Part shown: in pieces, positions 5,093 through 5,530 of the stretch | Layout of the letters: every line of letters begins with the position of its first letter | Position numbering within the stretch: the first letter of the stretch is position 1 | Assembly (NCBI GenBank): GCA_014874475.1 | Contig: JADBJJ010000013.1 | Span: forward strand, 16,349 to 50,040 | Direction of reading: 5' to 3' | DNA from: Chloroflexota bacterium | Lineage (GTDB): Bacteria; Chloroflexota; Anaerolineae; B4-G1; DUEL01 | DNA: 33,692 nucleotides | Program-made: the position numbers and the translations under genes | The notes under the pieces: generated by a model | Told to the model about the DNA's origin: nothing | What the model saw: the letters and a program-made list of their open reading frames with translations, nothing else | Database searches by the model: none

Positions 5093-5341
5093 TTACCATT
5101 TCTCTTCGTCTTCTTCCAGGTCCTCGTCAAAAAGGTCCTCTTCTTCCCACTCTTCCTCTTCCTCCCACTCTAATTCTTCTTCTTCTTCCAGATCCTCGTA
5201 GTCAAAGACGTATTCCAGTTCCAGGGGATTTAGGCTGACGACTTCCAGAAGGGCCCCGCATTCCTCGCAGTACAGGCGATCGTAGAGAGCGACATCCGGG
5301 GAGACAGGAAGAATGGTGTTGCATTCTGGACAGCGTGCCAT
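5093..5341 (-). CDS. LysW-like zinc-ribbon carrier protein with long acidic tail
   Basis: 82 residues from the ATG at 5341, chosen because AAAGGAGG lies five bases upstream and because a promoter overlaps the farther in-frame start at 5446. Residues 3-43 follow the amino-group carrier LysW: CPEC (4-7), CEEC (25-28), then GALLEVVSLNPLELE. LysW carries alpha-aminoadipate or glutamate on its C-terminal glutamate during lysine or arginine synthesis. Here the last 36 residues are nearly all Glu, Asp, Trp and Leu and end in EDEEKW, with no EDWGE end. No lysX, lysZ or argX gene is in the window, so a carrier role is inferred from the fold only; an acidic zinc-ribbon adaptor is the alternative. Confidence 0.75.
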   Translation of the reverse strand: MARCPECNTILPVSPDVALYDRLYCEECGALLEVVSLNPLELEYVFDYEDLEEEEELEWEEEEEWEEEDLFDEDLEEDEEKW

Positions 5342-5373
5342 TTTTCCTCCTTTGAAAGTGGCCTGAATATGAA

Positions 5374-5417: not shown

Positions 5418-5446
5418 ATTATGCCATTTTCTTTTTTCTTCGTCAA
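5418..5446 (-). promoter_or_regulatory. Sigma70-type promoter for the LysW-like gene
   Basis: Read on the minus strand: TTGACG (5446-5441), a 17-base spacer that is nearly all purine, then CATAAT (5423-5418). Each hexamer matches consensus at five of six positions. Confidence 0.7.
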
Positions 5447-5483: not shown

Positions 5484-5512
5484 TTGACTTTTCAGGCCAG
5501 CGGAGGTAAAAT
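5484..5512 (+). promoter_or_regulatory. Sigma70-type promoter for the FmdB-type gene
   Basis: TTGACT (5484-5489) and TAAAAT (5507-5512) are 17 bp apart. Transcription would begin near 5519, giving a very short leader of about 12 bases. It is 37 bp from the promoter of the divergent LysW-like gene. Confidence 0.7.
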
Positions 5513-5530
5513 TCCACCACGAGGTGGAAG

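Follow-up and report, generated by a model that had tools for sequence, protein, structure and literature searches.

LysW is a carrier that protects amino groups, and the locus described here raises the question of what a protein with the LysW fold may be doing when a long acidic tail stands in place of the EDWGE end. The gene lies in a stretch of 33,692 nucleotides from a Chloroflexota bacterium, referred to below as the window. The first-pass annotation described a product of 82 residues with CPEC and CEEC pairs, the segment GALLEVVSLNPLELE and the end EDEEKW. The translated frame (MARCPECNTILPVSPDVALYDRLYCEECGALLEVVSLNPLELEYVFDYEDLEEEEELEWEEEEEWEEEDLFDEDLEEDEEKW, 82 aa) agrees with this description and places the gene on the minus strand, which had not been given (Table 1). 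Orthologues are present in 7/7 genomes of the genus, and dN/dS within the genus ranges from 0 to 0.11 over codons 1–50 in the pairs for which it could be computed. Together with Pfam and PDB matches far above chance, these observations indicate that the gene is real. The globular part of its product is under strong purifying selection.

Table 1. Features of the gene and its leader in the window
Feature	Position	Strand	Basis
Promoter TTGACG-17-CATAAT, with TG ahead of the -10	5418..5446	minus	sequence; genus alignment
Ribosome-binding site AAAGGAGGAAAA, immediately before the ATG	5342..5353	minus	genus alignment
CDS of 82 aa: LysW fold plus acidic tail	5093..5341	minus	stop codon 5093-5095; orthologues; dN/dS
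LysW-type zinc-binding globular domain, residues 1-45 (C4, C7, C25, C28)	5207..5341	minus	Pfam PF21344; AF2; PDB
Acidic tail, residues 46-82, 70% D/E, Trp end, predicted disordered	5096..5206	minus	translation; AF2; composition

The likeness to LysW extends beyond the two CxxC knuckles to the whole of the globular domain, and for this reason the two proteins are considered homologous. Residues 2–43 match PF21344 (Zn_ribbon_LysW globular domain) with 40.7 bits and an E-value of 1.8e-10, above the gathering cut-off of 27, and the sequence of LysW in the PDB is matched at E 3.5e-6. The four zinc-binding cysteines of LysW are unchanged in 12/12 aligned sequences. AlphaFold2, run with 12 aligned sequences, gives a pLDDT of ~85 for residues 1–40 and ~50 for the tail. 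When the predicted model was compared with known structures, the top five matches were all LysW chains (Z 6.8–7.6), the next unrelated row being at 3.9. The protein shares with LysW/ArgW (TIGR01206; PDB 3wwl, 5k2m and 3vpb) the Cys4 zinc-bound globular domain, an LEVV-x-L-x-PL-x-LE segment and an acidic character. However, it has neither EDWGE nor a C-terminal Glu, is ~28 residues longer, ends in Trp and does not stand beside LysX. It also falls under the cut-off of the NCBIfam lysW equivalog, scoring 21.1 bits against 53.2.

A normal LysW is encoded elsewhere in the same genome. The first-pass annotation had proposed a search for LysX/ArgX, LysZ and LysY and for a second, normal LysW, and this search located a carrier cluster on contig C21. 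Its LysW has 54 residues and an EDWGE end and scores 76.2 bits for the NCBIfam equivalog; the genes after it encode two LysX-type ligases, an ArgC/LysY reductase, a [LysW]-aminoadipate kinase, a [LysW]-lysine hydrolase, ArgG and ArgH. Both of the ligases contain GSWGR, which has been reported as the motif recognising EDWGE (PMC10433800). In the haloarchaeal carrier, the change of Glu54 to Ala abolishes function and causes arginine auxotrophy (PMC10433800). The window protein is not the genome's LysW. As had been remarked at the outset, its gene is not in a lysine or arginine cluster: no carrier genes of either kind were recognised by eye among the listed open reading frames of the window, and no LysX/ArgX, LysZ, LysY or ligase adjoins the gene in the window or in the orthologous loci read.

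The gene is flanked on one side by a sortase and a small membrane protein, an arrangement of which the sortase side is common to most of the genus loci compared, and on the other by an FmdB-type zinc ribbon. The good promoter claimed for it stands, being kept as TTGAC-17-ATAAT in 5 of the 6 genus relatives aligned and present in an altered form in the sixth (L013). The ribosome site AAGGAGGAAA is invariant in 7/7 genus members while the remaining leader drifts. Ahead of the promoter, also on the minus strand, there is a terminator-like hairpin (TTCCACCTCGTGGTGGAA followed by TTTT) at window positions 5512–5529. No known RNA element was found around the gene in Rfam, to an E-value of 0.1.

Relatives were sought in 296 genomes of the class with an alignment of the orthologues, and the fetched loci were then read. 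The sequences not cut by a contig end consist of 42 LysW proteins with EDWGE and 76 others, a few of the latter being alternative starts of one gene. In a tree resting on 48 columns, in which many forks are open, 18 rows that include the window protein (the window clade) fall on one side of a branch with support 99/96, apart from the EDWGE group with the genome's own LysW. A relative from Terriglobia (L018) falls outside this clade, at the end of a long branch, and no window-type relatives were found in 250 other genomes of the phylum at E 1e-11. A viral origin was also considered and rejected, there being no relative among viral contigs. In one family (f2) the window-clade gene is divergent from a PIN-TRAM gene.

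The tail of the window protein comprises 37 residues with ~26 carboxylates and a charge of about −25 at pH 7. It recurs in close copies from related bacteria, which indicates that it is genuine and maintained by selection. Comparison of the tail across homologues, which had been suggested as a check, indicates that length and sequence drift within the clade (total length 69–96 aa) and that no Glu holds a fixed position near the end. The last residue is Trp in 11/11 of the closest sequences and in 15/18 complete clade members (the window protein, L008–L017, L037, L038, L040 and L046, but not L039, L042 and L045), and is Glu in 0/18; L041, which is cut by a contig end, was left out of this count. 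A Trp closes 19 of the 59 listed tails that are at least 50% acidic, against 4.2 expected from tail composition, and a hydrophobic residue closes 33 of them, against 14 expected. This contrast is inflated by kinship among the sequences and is taken as support rather than as a probability; the alternative starts of L102 and L106, all Glu-ended, are counted repeatedly in it.

A second group of tailed proteins in the Anaerolineae has the LysW globular domain and an acidic Trp-bearing tail in common with the window protein. However, it forms a separate branch (34 rows, support 94/91) with variable ends, and many of its members are linked to a regulator. An OmpR-type response regulator is directly upstream in ~20 loci, and in ~10 loci the gene is followed by lysine 2,3-aminomutase (KamA) and then by one or two D-Ala-D-Ala-ligase-like ATP-grasp genes. 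The row of OmpR-type regulator, tailed LysW-like protein, KamA and ATP-grasp is seen at L148:1609–5992 and also in L139, L140, L149, L153, L154, L165, L179 and L180. It is possible that this row represents an undescribed amino-acid pathway. In L179 the row is followed by an elongation factor P-like gene (L179:524–1090) whose loop reads KPGRG, with an Arg at the place of the modified Lys of E. coli EF-P. The window gene has the sortase and the FmdB-type zinc ribbon instead of a regulator upstream and KamA downstream. A KamA/ATP-grasp operon in the window protein's own genome was considered and rejected, as KamA stands alone on contig C32, with no ATP-grasp or regulator match in the stretches fetched from that genome.

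This second group bears on whether the window protein could still carry amino groups, attached at another site: a Glu of the tail would then be charged by an unrecognised ATP-grasp ligase. The LysW fold and the Glu-rich tail are compatible with such a role, as is the operon in which the sister group stands with an aminomutase and two ATP-grasp enzymes. However, the window clade has no conserved C-terminal Glu and varies widely in length, no ligase adjoins its genes in the loci read, and the genome's own KamA is without ATP-grasp partners, all of which makes this an unlikely function.

The distribution of LysX bears on a further explanation. LysX was found in 209/296 class genomes of the same draw. 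According to a hand tally, 53 of the genomes tested carry a tailed LysW-like protein; 18 of these gave no LysX match at E 1e-40, and in 5 others the only LysX matches fall under the cut-off. Four of the 18 have window-clade members: G125 (100% complete), G184 (90%), G233 (81%) and G223 (80%), although for G233 and G223 missing sequence could explain the absence of LysX. In G125 and G184 neither an EDWGE LysW nor a detectable LysX was found. Of the clade members in these four LysX-less genomes, L039, L042 and L045 are without the Trp end and that of G223 has it, while all members with a complete end and a LysX in the genome are Trp-ended. This correlation is inseparable from relatedness, and the tip might relate to LysX-bearing genomes. 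Such a pattern would suit a mimic that stays uncharged itself and, through its hold on LysX or other enzymes that bind LysW, regulates the carrier pathway, particularly as the LysW docking domain is shared and the acidic Trp-bearing tail resembles EDWGE. However, the gene persists in G125 and G184 and is far from the carrier cluster, and a role as a mimic appears doubtful.

It is quite improbable that the protein serves as a zinc or metal buffer. The Cys4 zinc ribbon and the abundant carboxylates of the tail could serve such a purpose, but the conserved C-terminal Trp is not needed for buffering and no metal-uptake or efflux neighbours were seen in the loci read. Least credible is a relaxed, functionless duplicate with a tail lengthened by GAA/GAG slippage: the tail varies in length and is rich in these codons, but the low dN/dS of the globular part, the conserved promoter and ribosome site and a terminal Trp that is retained while the tail drifts all argue against it.

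The reading that we favour, with some reserve, is that the window protein is a LysW paralogue that has kept the zinc-bound globular domain and probably acts as a non-carrier adaptor, its Trp-ended tail docking on a partner. This is suggested by the failure to reach the LysW equivalog cut-off while passing that of the Pfam globular domain, and by the absence of the attachment Glu and of a ligase neighbour together with the undetected LysX in some of the genomes that carry the gene. The same evidence separates the two options left by the first-pass annotation: an acidic adaptor is the best fit and is predicted here, while a carrier that attaches its cargo at another end is not supported. The paralogue has lost its attachment residue, and would have stopped carrying and been reused for binding. 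The protein is presumably well expressed, and its flexible tail, with the tip Trp and free carboxylate, may dock in a basic pocket of the partner that accepts aromatic residues, with the globular domain providing a second contact face. SSB-type acidic C-terminal tips offer an analogy, since there too a disordered, acidic tail closes with an aromatic residue and could be a docking peptide; the window protein, however, is without the SSB fold. Direct mimicry of an SSB tip was rejected, as the genome's own SSBs end EEFPF and EEIPF rather than EEW. The adaptor reading is weakened by the tailed paralogous clade beside KamA and ATP-grasp genes, which looks like amino-acid chemistry, and by the missing Trp end in three of the four members from LysX-less genomes.

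Further architectures occur among the relatives. At L143:4978–5793 (minus strand) a LysW-like domain and an acidic stretch precede a complete GreA in one fused protein (PF21344, PF03449 and PF01272); in L081, from another genome of that family, a contig end cuts through a similar domain. The GreA proteins of the window protein's own genome, inspected by eye, are without the LysW domain. In L102 and L106 a LysW-like domain, whose acidic end is short, is fused to a rubredoxin-like CxxC segment, while L065, L056 and L118 each show a tandem pair of LysW-like genes in the same genome. A partner of the adaptor in the transcription or RNA machinery can be put forward as a guess only; the GreA fusion and the response-regulator neighbours hint weakly at a partner in gene expression, and both are found in relatives rather than in the window clade.

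No account of acidic-tailed LysW-like proteins of this kind turned up in the literature searched on LysW. It may be proposed, very tentatively, that the Anaerolineae contain a whole family of LysW-fold non-carriers that serve gene expression as acidic adaptors and that, in the window clade, are recognised by their C-terminal Trp. The conservation of a paralogue that has no attachment residue, also where the charging enzyme is undetected, suggests a second use of the LysW fold. An annotation based only on the zinc domain can give such proteins the name LysW, and a carrier pathway would then be predicted wrongly.
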